From positions 1 to 11,141 of the forward strand of contig CAKSPH010000042.1 in the NCBI GenBank assembly GCA_934481355.1: a stretch of 11,141 nt of DNA. Direction: 5' to 3'. Both the position numbers and the translations under genes were made by a program. This DNA comes from an uncultured Oscillospiraceae bacterium (lineage in GTDB: Bacteria; Bacillota; Clostridia; Oscillospirales; Ruminococcaceae). Under the pieces are notes generated by a model. The model saw only the letters and a program-made list of their open reading frames with translations, made no database searches and was not told the DNA's origin. The first letter of the stretch is position 1. Every line of letters begins with the position of its first letter. Shown here piece after piece: positions 1 to 11,141 of this stretch.

Positions 1-39
1 ACAAAACCGGAAGCAGGAGCCCGGTTTTTAGAGGTTACC
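1..39. repeat. Right end of a GGTCACC-family terminal-inverted-repeat element, cut by window edge
   Basis: Positions 23-39 read GGTTTTTAGAGGTTACC, one base different from the right terminal repeat of the complete element at 6801-6959. The matching left end would lie to the left of the window. The terminus overlaps the 3' end of the methyltransferase gene: its last three codons (Gly-Asn-Leu) and its TAA stop are written in the repeat. Only the end is visible, so interior type and element length are unknown. Confidence 0.7.
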
Positions 40-822
40 TTTGGATAATACGACTATTTTGTTGGAAATATTTCTGACCAAGGGTATTTTATCAAGCGCC
101 TTATAAATCGGAATGAACTTCGCCATGCCCTCTGTAAGACCGTGTTCCCCGGAGAGGCGGAAATCCGGGATCAGCTCTGCAAGCGCCCTGCCGTTCTTTA
201 CGCCCCATGTGAATTTTGCCTTGCTGCCCTCGATGGAGCGCTCCCTGAAACGCTTTGCGACCGCCGGGTTCATTATCTCGACAAGGACCTCCACATTCTC
301 AAATCGTGCGGAGATAACGGCGAAGATACGCTGAACATCGGCCTCGGAAAGATACATCGTAAGTCCCTCGATGATGACCAGCGCCGGAACGCCGGTCTCC
401 TCTATTTCACTGCCCCAGTCGTCCATTGCGGACATGGGTATCTGCGTTATTTTATCTGTCGACGGCAGAATATTCCGGCGCACCGCGATAGTTTCCGGAA
501 GGTCGAGGTTATACCAGTGGCAGTAGTTTTTCATGCGGTAGCAGCGCGTATCAAGTCCGCAGGCAATATTCACCGCCACCGCGCCCGGGTGCGCCATAAG
601 GAACTTCTCAGCCAGGCGGTCAAGCACGATGGTGCGTGCGATAACGCCGTCATGCATTGCGGAATCCTTGTCCGCCAGCGAGAAATCATAATCCAGATTC
701 CCGACTATCTCGACAGCCTTGCCGTCCTTTATCGCTCCCCTGCCCCTTGTTTCCTTTGCGCGGGCGTATATCGTCTGGAGCATTGTTTCTGTTACCCCCG
801 AAAGGGTTGGTTTTTCACTCAT
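28..822 (-). CDS. Class I SAM-dependent methyltransferase, leucine carboxyl methyltransferase (LCM/PPM) family
   Basis: This 264-residue cytoplasmic protein should transfer a methyl group from S-adenosylmethionine, in this family usually to a carboxyl or hydroxyl oxygen. Family marks seen are the SAM-binding motif ACGLDTR (residues 87-93), the acidic NLDLPE (105-110) and EGLTMYL (152-158), which together are typical of LCM-fold enzymes. No signal peptide or membrane segment is seen. The ATG at 822 has CGGAGG at 829-834, six bases upstream. The gene lies 27 bases after the ABC-transporter remnant and is probably co-transcribed with it from the operator region at 1078-1093. Its last codons (G-N-L) and stop lie inside the end of a repeat element, so the native C-terminus may have been replaced or slightly trimmed. 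The substrate cannot be read from sequence. Bacterial members often act on small metabolites or natural products rather than on proteins. Confidence 0.88.
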   Translation of the reverse strand: MSEKPTLSGVTETMLQTIYARAKETRGRGAIKDGKAVEIVGNLDYDFSLADKDSAMHDGVIARTIVLDRLAEKFLMAHPGAVAVNIACGLDTRCYRMKNYCHWYNLDLPETIAVRRNILPSTDKITQIPMSAMDDWGSEIEETGVPALVIIEGLTMYLSEADVQRIFAVISARFENVEVLVEIMNPAVAKRFRERSIEGSKAKFTWGVKNGRALAELIPDFRLSGEHGLTEGMAKFIPIYKALDKIPLVRNISNKIVVLSKGNL

Positions 823-849
823 TGCTGACCTCCGTTATAATTGATGCTT

Positions 850-1056
850 CTATTGCTCATAGCTGAGCTGCACATTCTCAATGTGCCTGTAAATTCCGCC
901 GGCTTCTCTCGGTTCTGCGGGCGTGCTGCTCCCGGCGACCCTGCCGTCCTTAAGGGCGACTATCTTGTTCACGCCGTCAACAGCATAGCTCAGGCATTTA
1001 TGCCCGCCCGCATACTTCATCAGCACTGAAAATGCACTGTTCTGTTTTGGTTTCAC
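850..1056 (-). pseudogene. ABC exporter remnant: N-terminus fused to C-terminus by internal deletion
   Basis: This is a 68-codon ORF with a GTG start at 1056, preceded by AAGGAAG at 1064-1070. The first part, KPKQNSAFSVLMKYAGGHK, resembles the cytoplasmic N-terminal lead-in of clostridial fused-domain ABC exporters. From residue about 28 it changes to NKIVALKDGRVAGSSTPAE and GGIYRHI, which resembles the end of the nucleotide-binding domain (the usual ADKIVVLKDGRVVEEGTPEEL...GGIY pattern). The roughly 500 residues between them (all membrane segments, Walker A, signature and Walker B motifs) are missing. The reading frame is kept across the join, the RBS and operator are intact, and a methyltransferase follows after 27 bases. 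It cannot transport anything. It may persist as a short leader ORF that keeps the downstream gene translated. The identification rests on remembered family patterns, not on a search. Confidence 0.6.
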
Positions 1057-1077
1057 ATCAATGCTTCCTTTATTTTT

Positions 1078-1093
1078 GTTAGCTTTAGCTAAC
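1078..1093. promoter_or_regulatory. Palindromic operator upstream of ABC remnant/methyltransferase operon
   Basis: The sequence GTTAGCTTTAGCTAAC has perfect 7-base arms around TT. It sits just before the RBS of the ABC remnant and shares the GTTAG-N6-CTAAC form with sites at 4120-4139 and 7632-7653. Those two lie at or just downstream of a consensus promoter. Here no good -35/-10 pair is visible, although TATAGT at 1107-1112 (minus strand) is a possible -10. The adjoining repeat element starts 8 bases away and may have displaced the original promoter. Confidence 0.65.
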
Positions 1094-1101
1094 CTGTATA
1101 T

Positions 1102-1380
1102 GTTCAACTATAAAAACCGGGACACGGGCAGATTTCGTACATGACTTATATCAGATGCAAGGAGTCAAACCGCAGCATTATCCGCCTTCGGCGGATAATG
1201 CGTTTACTGTATGTGTTTCAAGGTTTGACAACTAAGCAGATGATACGGGATACGCTGAATATAGCGAAGCGTAACAAAATCAGACGAGTGAGTTCCCTCG
1301 TTTGAACGGGTCGGTTTTGTTTTATTCAGCGTTTCCCTTTGGCATAGAAATCTGCCGTGAAGAAGGTTTTAAAGGTTACT
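1102..1380. mobile_element. 279-bp non-autonomous TIR element (MITE-like) with large internal foldbacks
   Basis: The left end (1102-1118) matches GGTCACCTCTAAAAACC at 14 of 17 bases. The right end (1365-1380) is a degraded GGTTTTTAGAGGTTACC with one base lost. Inside, the blocks ACACGGGCAGATTTCGTA (left) and AATCTGCCGTGAA (right) are shared with the element at 9773-9895, as is a middle block around TTTGACAAC...GATGATAC. Two extra structured blocks are present. One is a 12-bp hairpin (1175-1186 with 1190-1201, loop TTC) inside an 8-bp inverted repeat (1164-1171 with 1222-1229). The other is a nested fold with 10 bp (1252-1261/1323-1332), 7 bp (1273-1279/1315-1321) and 5 bp (1284-1288/1297-1301). 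No transposase and no clear target duplication are seen. It fills the whole gap between the ATPase stop and the operator at 1078. Confidence 0.65.
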
Positions 1381-3466
1381 GTAACATACTGCCGTCTTTT
1401 AGAAGCGGAGTCATGCTCTTTGCGCATATTGCAATGGTTGAGCCATTGTGAAGCAGAGCCGACAGCGACGGAGTTATCACGCCGAAGAATCCGAGCGCAA
1501 TAAGCGCAGTATTGAATGTCAGAATAAACCGATAGTTGGAATTTATCCTCTGCATGAGCTGCTCGCTGAGTATCCTCAGCACGGCAAGCTCTGTGAGCTC
1601 GGCGCCGCGGAGGGTGATATCCGCAGTTTCCTTCGCGATATCGGAAGCGTCGCTCATCGCTACAGAAACATCGGCAGCCGCAAGCGCGGGGGCGTCGTTT
1701 ATGCCGTCGCCGACCATGATAACGCAGTGCCCCCCGGATTTAAGCTGCTCAATATGGCTGTGCTTCTCCTCAGGGAGCACCTGAGCGTGAACCTCGGTTA
1801 TTCCGAGCTGCCCGGCTATCTTCTCAGCCGCGGAGCTGCTGTCGCCGGTAAGCATCACAACATTCTCTATGCCGCATTTCTTCATCAGCTCCACCGCCCG
1901 TGCCGCTTCTGCGCGGGGCGGGTCGTTTATGCAGAGCACGCCGGCAAGCTCGCCGCCCACCGCCAGATAAATAACGGAGGAAGCTCCGGAATCCTCGTCG
2001 ATTCGCGCCTGCTGCCCTGCGGAGATGACAACGCCCTCGTCGTCGCAGACAAAGTGGCGGCTGCCGATGACGGCGCGCACTCCGTGAAGCGTCGTGGCTA
2101 TGCCATGGGCAACTATGTAGTTGACCTCAGCGTGCTCCTCTGCGTGGACTACGCCACGCTTCTCAGCGCCCCTGACTATCGCCCTCGCCATGCTGTGCGG
2201 GAAATGTTCCTCAATGCAGGCGGCGGTTCTGAGCACCTCTTCCTCAGAATACTCTCCGAACGGAATTATCTTGTCAAGCACAGGCTCCGCATTTGTGAGA
2301 GTTCCCGTCTTGTCGAAAACGATGGTGTCCGCTGCGGCAAAGGCTTCAAGGTACTTTCCGCCCTTTACCGTTATATTGTGGTCTGCGGCCTCACGCAGCG
2401 CAGAAATCACCGCGATAGGCGCCGAAAGCTTTATCGCGCAGGAATAATCCACCATCAGCAGTGAAACTGCCTTGGTGACATTTCCCGTGAACAGCAGCGT
2501 CAGGCCGAATCCCAGGAAGCTGAACGGAACTATTCCGTCCGCCAGCCGCTCTGCGCGGCTCTGTATGCCCGCCTTCAGATTCTCCGAGCTGTCGATGAGC
2601 TCGATTATCTTCTGTATCTTCGTGTCGGAGCTTACCGCCCTGACGCTTACGACCACTGAGCCTTCCTCGACGACTGTTCCCGCGAACACCGACGCATTCA
2701 CGGATTTCATAACAGCCAGAGGCTCTCCGGTCATCGAGGATTCGTTGATATAAGCCTCGCCGTCGGTTATCTCGCCGTCTGCCGGGATAACGCTGCCTGT
2801 CCTTACGCGTATTTTGTCGCCTGTTTTCAGTTCGTCTATCGGGATAAGGACGTCCTCGTCCCCGTTTGCGAGCCATACCTTGTCCGCCTTTACCGCAAGG
2901 CTGGACGTAAGCACCGCCCTGGTGCGGGCGTGGGTGTAATCCTCAAGCAGAGAGGATACCGAAAGCAGAAGCATGATTGTGGAAGCCGTCTTGAAATTAC
3001 GCTGCGCAAGACAGGCTGTAATTGAAGCCGCGTCCAGTACCCCGACCGTGAGTTTCCCCTGACCCAGCTCGGAAAGTCCCTTTAAAACGTACTTTGCGCT
3101 GCTGAACACAGTCAGAGCCGCACGTATAGGCGCAGGAAGCAGGAACTTCTTTACATAGTGCGTAACTATGAGCTTTGTGAGCCCGCTCTTAAAGTTGTCG
3201 TCTATTTCCTGAGTGGCATTATCCCCGGGTATCGGGGAAAGGGTACGGAAATCAAGGGACTCGATAAAGCTGATGACCTCGCGCCTGCTGCCCTTTTTGT
3301 AGTAGATCAGCAGACCTCCGTTTGCGGAGTGCACCTCAGCGGAAAGCACAAAAGAGTTAACCTCGGCTAACTTCCGTATACAGCTTTCAAGCTCCTTATC
3401 AAAAGCATATCCCCCGAAACGCACCCTTATGCGCCCGGGATTATCCGATATGATCCTGTAACGCAT
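1376..3466 (-). CDS. Heavy-metal P1B-type ATPase, FezB-like (P1B-6-like)
   Basis: This 696-residue membrane ATPase should move a transition metal ion across a membrane using ATP. Seen motifs are the actuator TGE (246-248), the phosphorylation site DKTGT with D385, a nucleotide-domain HP within FPHSMA, TGD, and GDGIND (586-591). The membrane motif before the phosphorylation domain is SCA (342-344, in DYSCAIKLSAP) rather than the CPC, SPC or TPC of common Cu, Zn, Cd or Co pumps. The N-terminus lacks CxxC and instead carries the basic motif PGRIRVR (10-16). The combination fits the atypical group that includes ferrosome FezB proteins, so iron is a plausible substrate. That assignment is inferred from memory of the family. 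The start ATG overlaps the stop of the upstream small gene (TAATG), which indicates translational coupling. The stop codon lies in the decayed end of the adjacent repeat element. Confidence 0.9.
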   Translation of the reverse strand: MRYRIISDNPGRIRVRFGGYAFDKELESCIRKLAEVNSFVLSAEVHSANGGLLIYYKKGSRREVISFIESLDFRTLSPIPGDNATQEIDDNFKSGLTKLIVTHYVKKFLLPAPIRAALTVFSSAKYVLKGLSELGQGKLTVGVLDAASITACLAQRNFKTASTIMLLLSVSSLLEDYTHARTRAVLTSSLAVKADKVWLANGDEDVLIPIDELKTGDKIRVRTGSVIPADGEITDGEAYINESSMTGEPLAVMKSVNASVFAGTVVEEGSVVVSVRAVSSDTKIQKIIELIDSSENLKAGIQSRAERLADGIVPFSFLGFGLTLLFTGNVTKAVSLLMVDYSCAIKLSAPIAVISALREAADHNITVKGGKYLEAFAAADTIVFDKTGTLTNAEPVLDKIIPFGEYSEEEVLRTAACIEEHFPHSMARAIVRGAEKRGVVHAEEHAEVNYIVAHGIATTLHGVRAVIGSRHFVCDDEGVVISAGQQARIDEDSGASSVIYLAVGGELAGVLCINDPPRAEAARAVELMKKCGIENVVMLTGDSSSAAEKIAGQLGITEVHAQVLPEEKHSHIEQLKSGGHCVIMVGDGINDAPALAAADVSVAMSDASDIAKETADITLRGAELTELAVLRILSEQLMQRINSNYRFILTFNTALIALGFFGVITPSLSALLHNGSTIAICAKSMTPLLKDGSMLQ

Positions 3467-3708
3467 TAGTCCGCACTTTCATCGTTAAGACCAGCCTGCT
3501 CCTTTGCCTCATAGCAAAGATCCTGCGCCTCGTCCTTCATGTTCTGGAATGCTGCCTTAGCGTCGCTTGTAAGCTTCATTCCCTTTGCAAGGCCTGTTAC
3601 AGCGATCTGTCTTGTCTTCTTGGCTGTGATTATCTTCTTGCCAACGATAACGCCTGCCGCGCCTGCTGCTACCAGCCAGAATTTTTCGTTTTTAAAGATG
3701 TTTTTCAT
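3466..3708 (-). CDS. Small membrane protein, DUF6110-like, partner of the P1B ATPase
   Basis: This is an 80-residue protein. The start at 3708 is chosen because GGAGG (3718-3722) lies nine bases upstream; a longer 97-codon reading from 3759 would place that RBS inside the gene and begin at the expected transcription start. Residues about 8-23 (FWLVAAGAAGVIVG) form one glycine/alanine-rich hydrophobic segment, followed by a basic stretch (KKIITAKKTRQ) and an acidic, probably helical tail. I recognise the pattern as DUF6110, a family often found beside metal P-type ATPases in Clostridia. It is the first gene of the operon and overlaps the ATPase start by one base. A role as a small accessory or scaffold protein, perhaps the counterpart of FezA in ferrosome operons, is an inference. 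No catalytic motif is visible. Confidence 0.78.
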   Translation of the reverse strand: MKNIFKNEKFWLVAAGAAGVIVGKKIITAKKTRQIAVTGLAKGMKLTSDAKAAFQNMKDEAQDLCYEAKEQAGLNDESAD

Positions 3709-3735
3709 TTTTGTTGTCCTCCTGTATTTTGCTTG

Positions 3736-3754
3736 CAGAGGAAATCGTCCTCTG
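3736..3754 (-). promoter_or_regulatory. Short inverted repeat in the leader of the ATPase operon
   Basis: A perfect 7-bp inverted repeat, CAGAGGA and TCCTCTG, with a 5-base spacer lies between the -10 box and the RBS of the DUF6110-like gene. It starts close to the predicted transcription start, so it could be a protein-binding site or a 5'-end hairpin. It does not match the GTTAG-N6-CTAAC operators elsewhere in the window. Confidence 0.35.
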
Positions 3755-3762
3755 TACACTAG

Positions 3763-3791
3763 ATTATATCCCTTTTGTCGTAAAATGTCAA
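3763..3791 (-). promoter_or_regulatory. Consensus sigma-A promoter for the DUF6110/P1B-ATPase operon
   Basis: On the minus strand TTGACA (3786-3791) is followed after exactly 17 bases by TATAAT (3763-3768), a perfect match to the housekeeping consensus. Transcription should start near 3756, giving a leader of about 48 bases. Such a strong core promoter for a metal pump suggests that a repressor controls it. An imperfect GTTA...TAAC palindrome at 3805-3821 lies just upstream of the -35. Confidence 0.85.
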
Positions 3792-3819
3792 GGAAAATTT
3801 TTCTGTTACCCTATAGATA

Positions 3820-3879
3820 ACTTTTTAGAGGTGACCTATTGTCAGGCTTCGGAAATACCGTGGTAACCTCTAAAAAACC
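3820..3879. repeat. Pair of outward-closing TIR ends of the GGTCACC family
   Basis: Positions 3820-3836 match the right terminus (GGTTTTTAGAGGTGACC) at 15 of 17 bases. Positions 3862-3879 match the left terminus with one extra A. Here the outer ends face each other across 25 bases, the reverse of a normal element. This could be two solo ends left by separate elements that inserted side by side. As single-stranded RNA or DNA the pair could also fold into a stem of about 15 bp. The partner ends are not adjacent. Confidence 0.6.
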
Positions 3880-4085
3880 TCCATCACGGCAAAATACCCG
3901 GAAAAATTCCTGCCCTCCTCAATGAAATCCACTTTTTTACGTCATGATAAAACGTATACATATTTACAATGTATGGAATCTTGTGCGAAACCGCATTGGA
4001 ATGCGCCTTTGCAATATACTGAAGTTTACTGTGTATTTGTTCACCATCACCAGACCTGTTGAAAGAATTTCATGCGTTATGTCAC
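3880..4085. other. Intergenic stretch without recognisable gene
   Basis: These 206 AT-richer bases lie between the repeat pair and the enolase promoter. I see no supported ORF with a ribosome binding site, no strong hairpin and no terminal repeat. Because the genes on either side diverge, the stretch may simply separate two promoters. Confidence 0.5.
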
Positions 4086-4114
4086 TTGCAATTTTCTGTG
4101 AAGTATGATATAAT
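4086..4114 (+). promoter_or_regulatory. Sigma-A promoter of enolase
   Basis: TTGCAA (4086-4091) and TATAAT (4109-4114) are separated by 17 bases. The start site is expected near 4121, so the enolase leader is about 157 bases long. The operator at 4120-4139 covers this start site. Confidence 0.8.
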
Positions 4115-4119
4115 GGCCG

Positions 4120-4139
4120 TGGTTAGAAATGACTAACCA
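4120..4139. promoter_or_regulatory. Palindromic operator over the enolase transcription start
   Basis: TGGTTAG-N6-CTAACCA has perfect 7-base arms and begins six bases after the -10 box, a position where a bound protein would block initiation. It has the same GTTAG-N6-CTAAC core as the sites at 1078-1093 and 7632-7653. The half-site and spacing suit a dimeric repressor such as a MarR-, TetR- or DtxR-family protein. Which family is not decided by the sequence. Confidence 0.7.
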
Positions 4140-4152
4140 AATAAGAATAAGC

Positions 4153-5570
<1,418 letters not shown>

Positions 5571-5573
<3 letters not shown>

Positions 5574-5597
5574 TTTCCGGTATGTAAATCAAGCCTT
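5571..5597 (+). terminator. Weak candidate terminator after enolase
   Basis: TGATTT and AAATCA (starting at the stop codon) can pair around nine bases, followed by a short spacer and TTTTT. The stem is only 6 bp and AT-rich, so this is a weak call. No better terminator is seen before the convergent hydrolase gene ends at 5623. Confidence 0.25.
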
Positions 5598-5622
5598 TTT
5601 CTCCGAATTATACAGCGCCTTT

Positions 5623-6597
5623 TTATGTTCTGACAATTATCCTTCCAAAAATAACCCTTGTATTGTCGCTGAACATTTCTGTCCTTATTCCATCTGCCAG
5701 ATATGATATCATGTTGAAATGTCCCAGATATGCGTCCTTTACTGTGTTCATCACCGGATAGCCGTGGTACATTCCCCTGCCCACCTCGAGCGTGACATCT
5801 GCGCCGGCGCTTTTCATCTGTGCCTCGAGCTCATCGCACATCGCATAGAGTATCTCGCCGTCGGCAAAGCAGATGTATGCGTCTTTCAGCCCGGTATAGT
5901 TTCCTAACTGCGGATATGTCATATACCGGGGCAGCTCCCTGCCGTTGGTTATCAGGTCATAAAAGGTGTCGAGCCACTTTACAGTCAGGCAGATGTCAGT
6001 CTTTTCGAGCTTTTTTGCGCGCTCCCTTTCCTCCTGCGAATAAATGCACATTTCCGGGGAGGAAACATACAGCTTATCAGGCATGGGAACATTTTCTCCC
6101 AGCCCGTTGATATGAGAAATAAGCGCCAGCGCAAGGGTGCCTCCCGATGAACAGCCGGCTGCCGCGACATTCCCGGCGCCGTATTCCGAAACAAGGGATT
6201 TATAAACCGTGTACACCATATCGACCGCTTCATTCATGGAATGCTCGATACACAGAGGATAGTGGGGAATTATCACATCTCTGCCTGTTTTCAGCGCGAG
6301 TTCCTCGAACAGGACATAATCTACGCCCTCGGGGAATCTGAGCATCTTTGTGTCAGGAATGTACAGCAGCGCCTTTGTACTGTTCTTACGCGTGATAAAT
6401 GTGGAAAGACAGCCGTGCTCAAACCTGCGCTCGTATTCAAGCTTTGGCGAAAACGCTTTGTCCATCACGGGAATGACGCGCGAGGTTTTCCGGTATTTTT
6501 CACGCAGCTCGTCCGCAGATAAATCCGGCGCTTTCTTATATTTGAACATCTGTGCCGCCATTCTTCTCAGACGGTATTTCAGCGTGAACTCAGACAT
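5623..6597 (-). CDS. Alpha/beta hydrolase, HSL-like (fold-3) family, with altered oxyanion motif
   Basis: This 324-residue protein lacks a signal peptide and is probably cytoplasmic. The nucleophile elbow GCSSG (148-152, S150), a C-terminal acidic site in FADGEIL (D246 or E248) and H278 in GMYHGY form a plausible Ser-Asp/Glu-His triad. The DVIIPHYPL segment (107-115) matches the strand that follows the cap region in lipase/esterases of the hormone-sensitive lipase type. Where those enzymes have HGGG (after a YLH-like strand), this one has YIPDTK (79-84), so the usual oxyanion hole is missing. It may hydrolyse an unusual ester, or it may have lost esterase activity. CGGAGGG at 6604-6610 supports the ATG at 6597. 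Expression probably comes from the promoter at 6720-6748. It is convergent with enolase, with 49 bases between the two stops. Confidence 0.82.
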   Translation of the reverse strand: MSEFTLKYRLRRMAAQMFKYKKAPDLSADELREKYRKTSRVIPVMDKAFSPKLEYERRFEHGCLSTFITRKNSTKALLYIPDTKMLRFPEGVDYVLFEELALKTGRDVIIPHYPLCIEHSMNEAVDMVYTVYKSLVSEYGAGNVAAAGCSSGGTLALALISHINGLGENVPMPDKLYVSSPEMCIYSQEERERAKKLEKTDICLTVKWLDTFYDLITNGRELPRYMTYPQLGNYTGLKDAYICFADGEILYAMCDELEAQMKSAGADVTLEVGRGMYHGYPVMNTVKDAYLGHFNMISYLADGIRTEMFSDNTRVIFGRIIVRT

Positions 6598-6690
6598 TGT
6601 TTTCCCTCCGGTTGGTTTTGTTAAAGAGACTGTTTGGCGTTCAACGTATAAATTTTACTCCATAAAAACCATTTTGATCTGCAAGGACAT

Positions 6691-6733
6691 TTTCATGGTA
6701 TAATAAACACACTGCGTTTATTATACCATGAAA
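6691..6733. promoter_or_regulatory. 43-bp perfect palindrome containing the hydrolase -10 box
   Basis: Bases 6691-6708 are the exact reverse complement of 6716-6733, with a 7-base centre. Each arm contains GGTATAAT, so a -10 sequence faces each way. The minus-strand copy belongs to a perfect promoter. The plus-strand copy has only a poor -35 (TTGATC, 19 bases away) and no gene downstream. Transcription of the hydrolase would start about at the palindrome centre, so the RNA would not contain both arms. This makes a DNA-level operator more likely than an RNA hairpin. Confidence 0.75.
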
Positions 6734-6748
6734 TATATACGCTGTCAA
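6720..6748 (-). promoter_or_regulatory. Consensus sigma-A promoter for the hydrolase gene
   Basis: On the minus strand TTGACA (6743-6748) and TATAAT (6720-6725) are separated by 17 bases, a perfect match. The expected start is near 6713, leaving a leader of roughly 115 bases before the ATG at 6597. Confidence 0.85.
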
Positions 6749-6755
6749 TGACTTC

Positions 6756-6795
6756 ATTACAGAAAAATGCGGCATGGAATACCCACGCCGCATTT
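6756..6795 (-). terminator. Rho-independent terminator, probably of the ATC-hydrolase gene
   Basis: AAATGCGGC (6765-6773) and GCCGCATTT (6787-6795) form a 9-bp stem with a 13-base loop. On the minus strand the stem is followed by TTTTTC (6762-6767). Reading leftward, the first gene before it is the ATC-hydrolase-like gene ending at 6977, and a repeat element lies between the two. It could also work weakly in the other direction, where TTTATTAT follows. Confidence 0.7.
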
Positions 6796-6800
6796 ATTAT

Positions 6801-6959
6801 GGTCACCTCTAAAAACCGGTTTGAAAAGTGAAAATGGGTAGAGTGCGCCGAATGCGATGAAAGCCGACGAAGTAAGGCTGTATGCCTTACGAGGAGGTTT
6901 GAAGAAGCAGTCGGTGTGCTATACACATTTTCACTCAAACAAGGTTTTTAGAGGTGACC
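6801..6959. mobile_element. 159-bp complete TIR element (MITE-like), near-palindromic
   Basis: The ends are a perfect 17-bp inverted repeat: GGTCACCTCTAAAAACC (6801-6817) and GGTTTTTAGAGGTGACC (6943-6959). The similarity continues inward with gaps for about 40 bases (GTTTGA...GTGAAAATG on each side), so nearly the whole element could fold back on itself around the central hairpin TAAGGC-TGTAT-GCCTTA. TTAT flanks both outer ends and may be a 4-bp target duplication. It encodes no transposase. It lies between the stop of the gene at 6977 and that gene's likely terminator, so the element is transcribed with the gene. Confidence 0.8.
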
Positions 6960-6976
6960 TTATAGATGTGGTCCGT

Positions 6977-7609
6977 TCACTTTTTCTTCTTGTATCCACA
7001 GTCGCAGAAGGGACCGCCGGATGCCAGCGTGTATTCCCTTATGAAATCCGAGGTCTTGCCGGCCTCTGCCATATTGTAGTCCAACCGGCACATTGCGGGC
7101 ACAAGGTCGTAAAGCCCGAGCTCCTTCGCGAGGGTGCAGATACCGCATTTTGTAAAGCGGGCTTCGTAACCGCTTCCGTCAGGGTAAATGAAGAGATCCA
7201 TGTTCCACGAATAGGGATTGCGGTCTGCTGCTTTCAGCGCGGCTGTCTGCTCCATTCCGGCAATATCCCTGGAGGTGAATTTCTTCTTACCGCTCTTGCG
7301 GCAGAACCACTTCACTGCGGGAATCATCATGGAGCTTGCGTAGTATTCGGCGAGCTGTTCCACTGTCGGGCGCTTAGGCATATGAAGAACTACCGCCGAG
7401 AGCATTGCACAGTTCACGATGTTCATTTTGAAGCGGTCAGCCTTTTCAAACTCCGGGATTTTCGCGATTATTCTGCGGTATTCCGGCTTTGCAGAATCGA
7501 TTATTTCTCTGGCTTCGCCTTTGTCATATCCCAGTATCCCGGTGAGCTGTTTTCTGAATGAACCTGAAAACATCAGCCACATTCCCCATGGCATTCCTGA
7601 ATATTTCAT
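6977..7609 (-). CDS. L-2-amino-thiazoline-4-carboxylic acid hydrolase (ATC hydrolase) family protein
   Basis: This is a 210-residue protein with no clear signal peptide. The C-terminal part (KCGICTLAKELGLYDLVPAM, LDYNMAE, and the closing PFCDC) fits the ATC hydrolase family, whose founding member opens a thiazoline ring on a route to L-cysteine. Conserved-looking cysteines are C155, C158, C174, C202 and C204. Most family members have no tested activity, so the substrate here is unknown. The ATG at 7609 has AAAGAGAGG (7618-7626) eight bases upstream. A strong promoter (7679-7707) and the operator at 7632-7653 indicate regulated, single-gene transcription. The tail ends in KKKK, 17 bases before a repeat element, which may have removed some original 3' sequence. 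Family assignment is from remembered motifs. Confidence 0.75.
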   Translation of the reverse strand: MKYSGMPWGMWLMFSGSFRKQLTGILGYDKGEAREIIDSAKPEYRRIIAKIPEFEKADRFKMNIVNCAMLSAVVLHMPKRPTVEQLAEYYASSMMIPAVKWFCRKSGKKKFTSRDIAGMEQTAALKAADRNPYSWNMDLFIYPDGSGYEARFTKCGICTLAKELGLYDLVPAMCRLDYNMAEAGKTSDFIREYTLASGGPFCDCGYKKKK

Positions 7610-7631
7610 GTTATGTACCTCTCTTTTCGCA

Positions 7632-7653
7632 TAAGTTAGAGTAAGCTAACTTA
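7632..7653. promoter_or_regulatory. Palindromic operator in the ATC-hydrolase leader
   Basis: TAAGTTAG-N6-CTAACTTA has perfect 8-base arms. It lies about 20 bases downstream of the predicted start site and just ahead of the RBS. The core GTTAG-N6-CTAAC is the same as at 1078-1093 and 4120-4139. Confidence 0.7.
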
Positions 7654-7678
7654 CTGTCATAGCTTTCCCTGTGATTTG

Positions 7679-7707
7679 ATTATATCACGGAAACGGATAT
7701 TTTTCAA
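7679..7707 (-). promoter_or_regulatory. Sigma-A promoter of the ATC-hydrolase gene
   Basis: On the minus strand TTGAAA (7702-7707) is followed by 17 bases and TATAAT (7679-7684). The start is expected near 7672, giving a leader of about 63 bases that contains the operator. Confidence 0.82.
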
Positions 7708-7739
7708 CAGGAAACGCTGGTATAAAGTGATTTTATGCG

Positions 7740-7803
7740 AAAAAATCTGCGGTAAACTCCGCCGGGAAAGTCGCAGCCGATAATCTGTGACTTTCCCGGC
7801 GGA
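7740..7803 (-). terminator. Terminator region of the 5'-nucleotidase gene with two alternative stems
   Basis: A perfect 15-bp stem is formed by 7789-7803 and 7758-7772, with a 16-base loop. On the minus strand a second possible stem, GCGG-AGTTTA-CCGC (7749-7762), follows and ends three bases before six T's (7740-7745). The two stems share bases 7758-7762, so they cannot both be complete. The simplest reading is a strong terminator for the gene ending at 7866. Confidence 0.65.
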
Positions 7804-7865
7804 TATTATGTTACAGCAGACAGCCGCGGAGCGTGGCGTTCCCGATACTGCGATACGGGGTCATA

Positions 7866-9710
7866 TTATCTTCTTCTGCGCGAAACAGCCATAATCGCCG
7901 CAGAAATTCCAACAGCGCATATGAGCACAGCCGCTGAGCCGGCACCGGTATTCGGGTTATCAGATACTCCGGAGGTATCTGCGGTTCCGGTAGTTTCGGA
8001 TGTTTCAGAAGTCCAGGATTCATCGGAGGTTTCGGGAGCTTCGTTCACGACAGTTATTCTGCCGCTTCCGCGCGGGTCGGAATATTCCCCTCCGACAGTG
8101 CCGCCGAGGTCGTCGGTTATGTAGTCGATGAGCGCCTGATTATCAAGGGAGATCTCCTTTGCGACCATGGGGCAGTCCCTGAACATCGTCATTCCGCTGC
8201 CGAAGCTGATAAGGTAATAATCGTGGGAAGCCACCGTATATGTCTTTCCGGGGTCAAGCGGCTCGTCGCCAACAAACACATTGCTTACGCGGTATTCGCC
8301 GTCAACGCCCATGAAGTTTCCGTCCTTGTCAGTCTTTACGGAAGATGGGATATAAGCGTTTATCTGATATGTAAGCCCGGAAACCTGAATGAAGCTGCCG
8401 TCCTCCTCGGGATAGTGCATCGCGCCTAGCTCAAGACAGTCGAGTATCTGCTGACCCGTGGCTTCTATGACGCAGAGGGAATTTCCGAACGGCTGTACGT
8501 CTATGATGTTCCCGTATGTGATGTCGCCTACCGCGATATTGGCGCGCACTCCTCCGCCGTTAATTATTGCGATGTCCGCTCCGGTCTTTGCACGGTAAGC
8601 GTCGGCGCAGAGGTCCCCGAGGTTGGTTTCAGAGTTCCTGACTGCGCGCGCCCCTGTGTCTGGATCGTTGACGGTGAGCTCAACGTCCGTCCTTGCGACA
8701 ACCGTTCCGGCGAGTTCGTTGTACTGCTCTTCTATTCCCGCGATGAAATCGGACGTATTCTGATATGCCTTGTATTCAGCGGAGTTTTCGTCCGTGGACA
8801 CTGTATAGTCGCCTTTGTTTATAAGAGTGCAGTCGACCTGATCCTGGGTTATGGTTATCTGACCGATAGTCTGGAGCTTGGTACCGGTAGATGTAAGCCA
8901 TACGTCATGCCTGTCCCTGTCCTCGTCCATTGCCGTTATCTGGCTGTGGGAATGCCCGTCAATGAAGCCGGTAAGTCCGCTGACGTGTTCTATCACCGAC
9001 GTGGAGCTCCATCTGTCGTCGTAAACGTAGTCACCCATGTGACCTATCGCGAACACATAGTCCGCACCGTCAGCATACGCAGCGTCTATCGCATTCTGGA
9101 CTGCGGTATAGAGCGCCGTCCCGTCATCTCCGCCGAGGAATCCGTAGATGTAATTACCGTTTTCGTCCTGAAAGTTTGAGGGTCTGCTGGAGGTCGGCGT
9201 TTCAGGCGTGGTTATCCCTATGAACGCTATCTTATACTGCTCGGCGTCGATGACCGTGTACGCCTGAAAAGGCTTTTCATCTGTCCTGAGGTCGGTGAAG
9301 TTCACTGAAAGATACGGAAACCGGGCTTCGCCTGCCAGCTTGAGGAACGTCTCAGCGCCGTAGTCGAACTCGTGATTTCCCGGAACCGCAGCGTCATAGC
9401 CAAGTTCGTTCATTATCTGCATCGGGTACTCTCCGTCTGAGAGCGTGCCGATAACTCCGCCCTGAATAAAATCTCCTGCGTCCACAAGGATAACGTTGTA
9501 TCCCTCGTCCTCCAGGCGCGCCCTGTATGCGGCAACGTCAGCCGCGCCATAGGTGGAATCGTCAGCCTCGAATCCGCAGTGCACGTCGTTCGTGTGAAGT
9601 ATGACTACGCCTTTGCTTTCCGCTTCTTCTGCGCCGGAAACAGTAGTGAACGTCATAAGCGATGACGTCAGCACTGCCGCAGAAGCAAGGAATGATATAA
9701 CATTCTTCAT
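7866..9710 (-). CDS. Cell-wall-anchored 5'-nucleotidase / metallophosphoesterase (UshA/YfkN type)
   Basis: This 614-residue secreted enzyme should remove phosphate from extracellular nucleotides, releasing nucleosides and phosphate for uptake. Parts in order are a signal peptide (about 1-26, ending VSGA), a metal-dependent phosphoesterase domain with HTNDVH (39-44), GDF (79-81), GNHEFD (111-116), IGHMGD and DGHSHS, and the C-terminal nucleotidase domain with NLGDLCADAYR, NGGGVRA and QPFGN. After a Ser/Thr/Glu-rich spacer comes NPNTG (585-589), then a hydrophobic segment and RRRR at the end, which is a sortase signal of the LPXTG kind with an N-P-x-T-G variant. The start at 9710 has AAGGGG nearby upstream. 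The repeat element at 9773-9895 begins about 60 bases upstream, so the promoter must lie in or next to it. The exact nucleotide preference is not visible. Confidence 0.93.
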   Translation of the reverse strand: MKNVISFLASAAVLTSSLMTFTTVSGAEEAESKGVVILHTNDVHCGFEADDSTYGAADVAAYRARLEDEGYNVILVDAGDFIQGGVIGTLSDGEYPMQIMNELGYDAAVPGNHEFDYGAETFLKLAGEARFPYLSVNFTDLRTDEKPFQAYTVIDAEQYKIAFIGITTPETPTSSRPSNFQDENGNYIYGFLGGDDGTALYTAVQNAIDAAYADGADYVFAIGHMGDYVYDDRWSSTSVIEHVSGLTGFIDGHSHSQITAMDEDRDRHDVWLTSTGTKLQTIGQITITQDQVDCTLINKGDYTVSTDENSAEYKAYQNTSDFIAGIEEQYNELAGTVVARTDVELTVNDPDTGARAVRNSETNLGDLCADAYRAKTGADIAIINGGGVRANIAVGDITYGNIIDVQPFGNSLCVIEATGQQILDCLELGAMHYPEEDGSFIQVSGLTYQINAYIPSSVKTDKDGNFMGVDGEYRVSNVFVGDEPLDPGKTYTVASHDYYLISFGSGMTMFRDCPMVAKEISLDNQALIDYITDDLGGTVGGEYSDPRGSGRITVVNEAPETSDESWTSETSETTGTADTSGVSDNPNTGAGSAAVLICAVGISAAIMAVSRRRR

Positions 9711-9730
9711 TTCTTTTTACCCCTTTTTTA

Positions 9731-9757
9731 ATTCTGTTCCATTCACTTTAACAGAAT
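9731..9757. promoter_or_regulatory. Inverted repeat upstream of the 5'-nucleotidase gene
   Basis: ATTCTGTT and AACAGAAT are perfect 8-base arms around 11 bases, placed about 20 bases before the start codon and next to the RBS. It may be an operator or a leader hairpin that affects ribosome access. No T-run follows on the minus strand, so it is not a normal terminator. Confidence 0.4.
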
Positions 9758-9772
9758 GGACAGATATATTAT

Positions 9773-9895
9773 GGTCACCTCTAAAAACCGGGACACGGGC
9801 AGATTTCGTATACTGATTGTATTTCAATGTTTGACAACAACGAAGATGATACAAACAGTAATAATCTGCCGTGAATAAGGTTTTTAGAGGCGTCC
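9773..9895. mobile_element. 123-bp TIR element (MITE-like), short relative of the 1102-1380 element
   Basis: The left end GGTCACCTCTAAAAACC (9773-9789) is identical to that at 6801. The right end (9879-9895, GGTTTTTAGAGGCGTCC) has a few changes near the tip. A second inverted repeat lies inside, CACGGGCAGATT on the left and AATCTGCCGTG on the right. The left block, the TTTGACAAC...GATGATAC middle and the right block are shared with 1102-1380, but the two large hairpin blocks of that element are absent. The flanks TTAT and CTAT could be a decayed 4-bp duplication. It sits between the dockerin gene's stop (9916) and the nucleotidase gene. Confidence 0.75.
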
Positions 9896-9915
9896 CTATG
9901 TTCCTGACCCGGAGA

Positions 9916-11141
9916 TCACGCGGATACTACCGCCCTGAGTATCGCGGCAGCGTCCAGCGCGTTTACTGTGCCATCGCCGTTAAAGTCGCACATCAGAGGA
10001 TTTGTACTCTCTGAGATACCAATGATCTCCTTTAACAGAGCCGCCGCATCCATAGCATTAAGTTCGCCGTTATTGTCGGCGTCGCCGGGGATGTCGCTGT
10101 ATTTGCAGACCATGACGATATATTCGCCGGCAGTTTCCGCTCCGGTTATTATTGCAGAACCGTCCGCGCCGACCTCTGAGCAGCACTTAAATACAAGCTT
10201 GTTGTCCACCAGCCTATATATGTTCGCAAATTGACCCGCAAATTCTTTGCGGAAACCAAGCCTGAGATCAGCCGGAATTCCTGTTCCCGCCGACTTGAAA
10301 TCAGCGCCGAAAACTCCGCGAAGCGTGCTCCTATCAGCGTTTCCGGGGAGCAGCGACAGATCTGCGGCAGGAGCCGAAGTCAGCTTTTCGCCGCTGACGA
10401 TCCAGCTTCTTGTGCTGTCCACAATGAACTCTGCGCGCACCTTTCTTTCCATGACAGCGCGAACGATCTCAGCAGGAACAGTAGTTTCACCGTTCAGATG
10501 GATCTGAACACTGCTGTTTTCAGGGGCTCTGCCGAGTGCGGACGCCATGTCCGTCCAGCTCTGTTCCGAGCCGTTGAGAGTCGGTTTTTTCCCGGCTGTT
10601 TCCGTTCCGGATGGACGCACATGACCGCCGTAGGAAATACCGGAGGACTTCTTCACGAACTCCGCCGCAAATGTGCAGTCGGCGGTCACGGTGAATGTGT
10701 ATCTGCCGTCAGTGAGCGCGACTTCCCTGCCGTCCATCGTGACGGACTTCACCCGATATCCGGAATCCGGAGTTACCGTCAGCGTTACCTCCGTACCGCT
10801 CTCATAGGACTTTGTACCGGGGGTAACTGTGCCGTTCGCGCCGGAATTTACCGTTACCGTAAAGCTGTCCGCCGGGATTTTTTCGAACTCCGCCGCAAAT
10901 GTGCAGTCGGCGGTCACGGTGAATGTGTATCTGCCGTCAGCGAGCGCGACTTCCCTGCCATCCATCGTGACGGACTTCACCCGATATCCGGAATCCGGAG
11001 TTACCGTCAGCGTTACCTCGGTGCCGCTCTCATAGGATTTCGTGCCCGGGGTCACCGTTCCGTCCGCGCCGGAATTTACCGTTACCGTAAAGCTGTCCGC
11101 CGGGATTTTTTCGAACTCCGCCGCAAATGTGCAGTCGGCGG
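9916..11141 (-). CDS. Secreted dockerin protein with InlB-B-like repeats (5' end outside window)
   Basis: The open frame runs through the right edge, so the N-terminus and any catalytic domain are not visible. An apparent start at 11055 is only an internal valine codon within a repeat. From the edge inward the protein has repeats of 76 residues (GTVTPGTKSYESGTEVTLTV, SGYRVKSVTMDGRE, YTFTVTADCTFAAEF), which resemble divergent InlB B-repeats, beta-rich modules of surface proteins. A serine/glycine linker and a domain of about 150 residues common ahead of ruminococcal dockerins follow. The C-terminus is a type I dockerin with two calcium loops, DADNNGELNAMD and DFNGDGTVNALD, each followed by a helix (AAALLKEI, AAAILRAV). 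Dockerins bind cohesins on scaffoldins, so the protein is probably part of a cellulosome-like or surface complex. Confidence 0.9.
   Translation of the reverse strand, partial: ADCTFAAEFEKIPADSFTVTVNSGADGTVTPGTKSYESGTEVTLTVTPDSGYRVKSVTMDGREVALADGRYTFTVTADCTFAAEFEKIPADSFTVTVNSGANGTVTPGTKSYESGTEVTLTVTPDSGYRVKSVTMDGREVALTDGRYTFTVTADCTFAAEFVKKSSGISYGGHVRPSGTETAGKKPTLNGSEQSWTDMASALGRAPENSSVQIHLNGETTVPAEIVRAVMERKVRAEFIVDSTRSWIVSGEKLTSAPAADLSLLPGNADRSTLRGVFGADFKSAGTGIPADLRLGFRKEFAGQFANIYRLVDNKLVFKCCSEVGADGSAIITGAETAGEYIVMVCKYSDIPGDADNNGELNAMDAAALLKEIIGISESTNPLMCDFNGDGTVNALDAAAILRAVVSA
10657..11141 (-). repeat. Tandem 228-bp coding repeats
   Basis: The string GAACTCCGCCGCAAATGTGC starts at 10657 and 10885 and, as far as visible, 11113, an exact 228-base period (76 codons). 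Two full units and the start of a third are in the window. The units differ at few bases, mostly third codon positions, with one Ala/Thr change seen, so they were duplicated recently or are being homogenised. Confidence 0.9.

Follow-up and report, generated by a model that had tools for sequence, protein, structure and literature searches.

Miniature elements with IS5-type ends that probably enclose one conserved, strand-specific folded core in Clostridia

Introduction

The window analysed here is a stretch of 11,141 nucleotides, contig CAKSPH010000042.1 of an uncultured Oscillospiraceae bacterium (GCA_934481355.1), in which a 17-bp sequence, GGTCACCTCTAAAAACC, recurs at the ends of short elements that can fold back on themselves. 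A preliminary description, made from the letters alone, took these for non-autonomous elements in which one terminal repeat surrounds interchangeable folded interiors, one of them an unrelated near-palindrome, and proposed that one unseen transposase acts on the ends. The locus raises the question of what is kept and what is exchanged in such elements. Our preferred reading, to which we give a probability of about 0.78, is that they are miniature inverted-repeat transposable elements (MITEs) with IS5-type ends around one kept, strand-specific folded core.

In the mechanism that we propose, a MITE of about 160 bp with 17-bp inverted ends would be recognised at these ends by an IS5-family transposase acting in trans, and its insertion at AT-rich sites would give rise to a 4-bp duplication. 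The interior would be a single folded core with fast-changing stems that stay paired on one strand, and this core would keep its fold while the ends are swapped. The most likely reason is that the fold, as RNA or as one specific DNA strand, helps the element to persist. Loci and genomes are referred to below by our own numbers (L and G).

Terminal repeats of the window

The shared sites are real, since the 17-mer matches the window eight times at no more than three mismatches against 0.03 expected, and none of 200 shuffles reached eight. Zero to two mismatches are found at 23-39 (-), 3820-3836 (-), 3862-3878 (+), 6801-6817 (+), 6943-6959 (-), 9773-9789 (+) and 9879-9895 (-), and three at 1102-1118 (+). 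The sites are intergenic or lie at gene 3′ ends, in agreement with the placement at gene boundaries noted before. Two of the three elements formerly listed as complete or nearly so, 6801-6959 and 9773-9895, have paired inward-facing ends, whereas those of 1102-1380 have decayed, with three mismatches on the left and one deletion and two changes on the right. The inverted pair at 3820-3879 does consist of two 17-mer ends, but these face outward and do not delimit an element; since the sequence after the right end resembles the subterminal sequence of family A, the pair reads as a relic. The elements 1102-1380 and 9773-9895 belong to one family (A), as had been proposed, and align lengthwise with elements of other genomes; the former carries two extra hairpin blocks (1175-1201 and 1247-1337) and the latter an internal deletion. 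Element 6801-6959 represents a second family (B).

A folded core common to the families

Long stems interrupted by internal loops are formed when alignments of 18 A, 20 B (including the window element at 6801) and 11 D elements are folded. In A, 97.9% of the cells are paired, 26 of 57 pairs show two-sided changes (13.0 when shuffled) and the score is 0.312 versus 0.101; the corresponding values in B are 96.7%, 18 of 54 (11.2 when shuffled) and 0.309 versus 0.131. When the alignments were slid, 35-44% of cells paired in A and 37-50% in B.

R1, a covariance model for which only the 18 A cores were used, matched all 17 B loci given to it, which had been chosen near base length out of about 54 B elements, as well as 5 of 10 D loci and both loci of a fourth type (25-27 bits). 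None of the 15 control loci was matched, and the next match scored 12.3 bits. Of these 17 B elements a sequence-only model (R2) found 10, with scores of 13-25 bits, and of the 10 D loci it found one; the window element 6801-6959 was not among these, and R2 gave no match at its core, 6837-6925. Because the model of A cores finds them and no controls, the interiors of A, B, D and the fourth type are homologous. The near-palindrome at 6801-6959, previously held to be unrelated, has a folded core homologous to those of the other two elements, since R1 finds it at 6837-6925, and from the R1 and sequence-only searches we reject the idea that the three window interiors are unrelated. Interchangeable interiors are not supported either: one folded core is common to A, B, the fourth type and half of the D loci examined, and apart from nested hairpin insertions it is mainly the ends that change. 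It must be noted that 9773-9895, which lacks part of the core, gave no R1 match at E <= 5.

In a mixed alignment of 85 distinct cores, fitted to the model, 95.4% of the cells are paired against 61.3% in shuffled alignments, the covariation score is 0.840 against 0.215 and there are 756 two-sided cells against 211. Conserved unpaired letters lie around GG, GCAG, TCAAG and ACG-AG, in addition to an apical TACT...TGTA hairpin, and over the whole A interior 54% of unpaired and 34% of paired columns are invariant. The R1 core was found in 40 of 43 genomes of one genus, with up to 34 copies per genome, and in 33 of 391 genomes of the class at E <= 1e-5 when only 11 candidates were scored per genome.

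Over the cores, no family of Rfam 15 scored up to its cut-off, either in the window or in the 17 loci searched. The search itself works, as four families passed elsewhere in the same loci; one of them, THF, with 38.9 bits against a cut-off of 36, extends over the left arm of the L260 element but not over its core. These side matches are lysine, FMN and THF riboswitches and a Fusobacteriales-1 RNA, at L267:105-278, L275:2350-2476, L260:1398-1493 and L210:258-376, and the match in L210 stops about 50 bases from the element of that locus.

Strand specificity of the fold

Among paired cells G-U outnumbers A-C by 13:0 in A, 74:2 in B, 68:2 in D and 114:3 in the mixed set, which suggests that the fold belongs to one strand, even though the structures were picked by RNA rules, which favours G-U. 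In A, however, the helices run almost without a break, and the four single-mismatch positions excluded from B contain seven G-T and no A-C. Consensus folds on the reverse and forward strand reach -69.0 versus -79.6, -22.5 versus -61.0 and -51.1 versus -89.1 kcal/mol. Individual elements agree with this: among 132 paired elements, collected from the fetched loci and the window and probably including a few false pairs, 99 were tested after leaving out 33 of unclear orientation or outside A, B and D, and the forward strand was the more stable in 93 (44/48 B, 21/21 D and 28/30 A). An intrinsic terminator has a GC hairpin followed by a U run; in the present elements the T run of the ends sits within the stem. 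Judged from these patterns, the core fold most likely acts as RNA or as one specific single DNA strand.

One may argue that these are plain MITEs with no functional interior, whose arms are kept complementary by template-switch correction in a quasi-palindrome, without selection on the fold. Such correction between quasi-palindrome arms occurs in bacteria, the whole element is an imperfect palindrome, and the nested hairpins treated below show that palindromes often arise or insert here; moreover, neither in B nor in the middle of A does the conservation of unpaired columns exceed that of paired columns. Correction should, however, erase internal loops, yet unpaired motifs persist (the 54% versus 34% of the A interior) and recur between other ends, and the process offers no prediction of the 114:3 excess of G-U over A-C. 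We consider this explanation improbable, slightly more so than the host RNA discussed below.

Exchange of ends around the core

The ends of the core were recorded at 90 distinct places in 86 loci, which are the best-scoring and hand-picked ones. An inverted-repeat scan covered 78 of 91 core matches, those omitted being 17-mer-ended, cut by a contig end (one) or second matches, and the recount of end types covers all 90 places. A listed end type is present on both sides at 66 places, on one side at 12 and on neither at 12. The 66 comprise eight places with the 17-mer, 36 with GARCCTGT or GAGCGTGTTCACAT, nine with TACTAATAACC, three with AGTGTRCTGTC and ten with the short CAGACTGTA, so that ends other than the 17-mer stand on both sides at 58 of the 90. 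Since the same core lies between at least four other end types, it appears that the ends, more than the interiors, have been exchanged around a conserved fold. Two further cases come from BLAST matches and sequence: a D core lies between GGGAARCRCTGATTAAA ends in L048, and L055:2121-2410 is a hybrid with a 17-mer-type left end, a GCTGATTAAAT-type right end and one D core. In L082 one GAGCCTGTTCACATTA end adjoins a DDE transposase remnant.

Median lengths are 160-164 bp among six end types, except for the GGGAARCRCTGATTAAAT type (91 bp), and elements of the CAGACTGTA type measure about 105-119 bp where measured cleanly. Duplications of 3 bp flank 10 of 12 TACTAATAACC pairs (permutation mean 2.8) and 16 of 45 GARCCTGT pairs (mean 6.6, maximum 13), counting end pairs with or without a core between them. 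At TAGAGCGTGTTCA ends TA occurs in 15 of 18 cases against a permutation mean of 14.2 and is uninformative for duplication, and the pairs of AGTGTRCTGTC (3) and GGGAARCRCTGATTAAAT (4) are too few. Duplications of 3 bp and 2 bp are known from other IS5 subgroups.

A wider reading is that of a mobile structured-RNA family, in which the folded core, transcribed or as a single strand, would be the conserved unit and would repeatedly change its ends among transposases that duplicate 4 bp, 3 bp and possibly 2 bp, the total length remaining near 160 bp for most end types. We hold this tentatively, as somewhat less probable than an even chance. If true, the core fold would have its own function in mobility, survival or host regulation across Clostridia.

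Alternatively, the core could be a host regulatory or structured RNA, such as a 3′-untranslated region element or a terminator, that acquired its ends secondarily. A strand-specific fold with covariation would be expected of such an RNA, and at 6 of 78 cores (in G012, G013, G014 and G037) no ends were picked up by the inverted-repeat finder, in addition to the 12 of 90 places without any listed type. B elements are also found more often on the strand of co-directional neighbours (21 versus 7), and cores with other ends more often between convergent than divergent genes (16 versus 5, by rough calls of open reading frames, ORFs). A host RNA is difficult to reconcile with up to 34 copies per genome in no fixed orientation and with listed ends on both sides at 66 of 90 places; no common neighbouring gene was seen either, though no test was made for one. 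We regard this explanation as unlikely.

Mobility and spread of the elements

The reading as MITEs around a kept core is further supported by signs of mobility. The paired elements are mostly 45-300 bp long, have terminal inverted repeats and are multi-copy. The constant 4-bp duplication that had been suggested as a check is exact in 76 of the 132, where 1000 permutations averaged 8.6 and never exceeded 18, and none was seen at 5-8 bp; ATAA/TTAT is the commonest duplicated site (30/76). An empty site, likewise looked for, was found in one case: in G026 a 159-bp B element lies between two genes, and the orthologous intergenic region is without it in G006, G003 and G025, which are all three relatives with both flanks on one contig. 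The region is otherwise diverged in these relatives, and the closest match to an end within it differs at 6 of the 15 specified bases. The one element tested is accordingly not at a fixed orthologous site. The empty site concerns the B element of G026 and not the window copies, because no close relative of the window was found. From its sequence features, the repeats of the window are MITEs of IS5 type, a known kind.

The 17-mer is not confined to the window, and neither of the two outcomes that the preliminary description had named as refuting was borne out. A pattern scan of genome contigs returned six loci, five of them titled Clostridia or Oscillospiraceae, and the genomes of these five hold 5 to 34 end copies each at no more than one mismatch, with none for the reversed control. 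The sixth locus, L002 (Alteromonadaceae), has a single end in its genome, which looks like chance. Within the genus of G006, 21 of 43 genomes contain exact GGNNACCTCTAAAAACC, as do 27 of 396 genomes sampled evenly across the family. The 19-base pattern had no match in viral contigs, nor element 9760-9910 in plasmids or phages. The L042, L043 and L044 contigs of G006 stop inside near-identical D elements (99% over 140 bp), and since contigs end in this way the D family may have multiplied recently in that genome.

The probable partner transposase

The unseen transposase that the preliminary description had placed outside the window has a counterpart in related genomes, where IS5-family elements carry the same ends. 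Among DDE transposase matches in 12 genomes, a single locus (L073, which L076 overlaps) is bounded left and right by the same end, at a distance of 1228 bp; the gene has one internal stop, and the piece before it scores 188.5 bits for NF033581. Homologs at E <= 1e-20 were found in 9 of 396 family genomes. At eight closer homolog loci, matching ends stand on both sides in L090 and L091 (one mismatch each) and in L093 (two mismatches, shortened), and on one side in L092, L095 and L097; L094 has only weak matches with four mismatches, and L098, cut by a contig edge, none. Six distant copies in G183 have other ends.

The elements L073, L090 and L091 are thus bounded on both sides by ends that are each at most one mismatch from the degenerate consensus given above as GGNNACCTCTAAAAACC, and measure about 1.24 kb. 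L091 contains an intact gene of 343 amino acids, which scores 272.4 bits against the NCBIfam IS5 model NF033581 (cut-off 140). A 4-bp duplication and ends starting with GG are features of an IS5 subgroup in ISfinder. The MITEs show both; of the insertion sequences L073, L090 and L091, only L091 is flanked by a duplication (TATA/TATA). No end nearer than four mismatches was found at PF13751 loci, no ORF was read by eye as a transposase within three end pairs of G006 that lie 0.95-2.2 kb apart, and a protein-structure comparison by sequence returned no solved relative of the transposase. These comparisons support the view that the 17-bp ends are a substrate of one kind of transposase, and we infer that an IS5-family transposase moves the copies of the window.

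Non-mobile REP- or terminator-like intergenic palindromes might resemble transposons in their mostly intergenic positions and strong hairpins. Exact 4-bp duplications, empty orthologous sites and transposase genes between the same ends make this exceedingly improbable.

Observations at variance with a kept core in IS5-type MITEs

A number of observations weigh against our preferred reading. Of the 132 paired elements, 56 are without an exact duplication, the window element 1102-1380 has none (ATAT/GTAA), and the insertion sequences L073 and L090 lack a target duplication. As DNA, one window gene was unmatched in 43 genomes, and one window protein had only homologs of 29-35% in 396 genomes. At least six of the 22 genus genomes without exact ends (G007, G008, G010, G031, G033 and G034) hold diverged copies matching the B element of L171, and the figure of 21 out of 43 therefore understates the spread of the end type.

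As regards the core, R1 missed five of the 10 D loci. In the mixed alignment, for which the fitting to the model must be kept in mind, 25 of 27 pairs show two-sided changes, hardly more than the 22.9 when shuffled, and 10 of 500 shuffles reach 25. Invariant columns make up 56% of unpaired and 56% of paired positions in the middle of A, and 23% and 28% in B. The own best fold of the A reverse strand has 12 G-U against 9 A-C, and a fixed sense orientation was rejected (13 same versus 11 opposite; 32 same versus 23 opposite, by rough ORF calls). As to the ends, the core places were a selected set, the 3-bp duplication tests did not depend on a core between the ends, and when the motif test, which is a loose one, was applied to 435 randomly chosen places in these loci, it produced 43 pairings, of which some overlap true elements.

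Nested hairpin blocks and other features of the window

Copies of the 91-bp block at 1247-1337 occur at slightly shifted positions in two A elements, within a D element and also outside paired elements, and a copy in L126/L029 turned up with L132 as the query. The extra hairpins of 1102-1380 are nested insertions, at least one of which behaves as a repeated element in its own right. A nested block found in B elements, among them L014:1501-1797, is made up of a ACACGATGT hairpin and a CGGCACGGACGCCG hairpin, in which the stems vary and pairing is kept by eye.

ORFs 28-822 (-) and 1376-3466 (-) take their stop codons from overlapping element ends, at 23-39 and about 1365-1380; these host genes encode a leucine carboxyl methyltransferase-like protein and a P-type ATPase. 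No transposase was found among the nine window proteins tested. At 10656-11141 tandem 228-bp repeats (95% identical) encode InlB-like repeats of a protein with a type I dockerin domain at its end. The features of the elements are collected in Table 1.

Table 1. Element ends, elements, cores and nested blocks in the window
Position	Strand	Feature	Match or comparison
23-39	-	17-bp end (GGTAACCTCTAAAAACC) with a single change, truncated at the edge of the window; holds the TAA stop of ORF 28-822 (-)	
1102-1380	+	Element of family A with decayed ends and two nested hairpin blocks (279 bp in all); target duplication absent	
1140-1254	+	Conserved folded core of the 1102-1380 element	cmsearch R1, 59.8 bits, E 4.9e-12
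1175-1201	+	Nested hairpin block GCATTAT...ATAATGC near the core apex; similar blocks with other stems in other elements	
1247-1337	+	Nested 91-bp foldback block with ends GGGAWACGCTGA; copies in other genomes	Identity L132 91%, L048 88%, L157 86%
3820-3836	-	Outward-facing end, probably a relic	
3862-3878	+	End leading into subterminal sequence like that of family A (CCTCCATCACGGCA); probably a truncated relic	
6801-6959	+	Family B element, 159 bp; two perfect 17-bp ends, exact TTAT duplication on each side	Also a row of the B alignment
6837-6925	+	Conserved folded core of the 6801-6959 element	cmsearch R1 (A-family cores only), 40.6 bits, E 3.2e-7
9773-9895	+	Family A element, 123 bp, without the 5′ arm of the core; near duplication TTAT/CTAT	Sequence model R2 match 9810-9857

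Comparison with known systems

Several classes of short mobile repeats invite comparison. TIMEs carry the ends of Tn3, and a REPIN is a doublet of REP sequences associated with a tyrosine transposase; compared by description only, both are like the present elements in being miniature, non-autonomous and moved in trans. REP and BIME sequences are palindromes of 20-40 bp with a tagged end and a tyrosine transposase, and element size and duplication argue against such an assignment here. ERIC and Correia elements have folded transcripts, and some carry inserts. They are short, palindromic and intergenic like the present elements but differ in hosts, sequences and ends. The main text of a MITE review that treats them (PMC10969869) mentions neither Clostridia nor Ruminococcus, and our search of the literature returned no description of these elements, nor of one core under several end types. 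A survey of structured RNAs in microbiomes includes palindromic candidates (PMC8040213), and the present elements could be among them.

Like structured RNAs of Rfam 15, the elements have a base-paired core, compensatory changes and conserved loops; unlike these, no family reaches its cut-off over the core, so that they would constitute a structured-sequence family in Clostridia that is absent from this collection. The closest likeness is with the MITEs of the IS5 family, with which they share short inverted ends common to an IS5 transposase, a duplication of fixed length, the lack of an internal transposase and many mostly intergenic copies. To our knowledge ordinary MITE interiors are mostly remnants or filler, and we are not aware of any published case in which several end types share a single folded core. 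Unlike those of IS5-family MITEs, the interior of the present elements has a conserved, covarying and strand-specific fold that is shared with elements having other ends. Whereas MITE interiors are usually treated as decayed filler, here a strand-specific fold appears to be kept with compensatory changes across many genomes while the ends, on which the choice of transposase depends, change. On the sequence comparisons made here, the new part is this core outliving changes of its ends, which offers a testable case of a non-autonomous element carrying a selected structure, and natural material on how such elements switch transposases.

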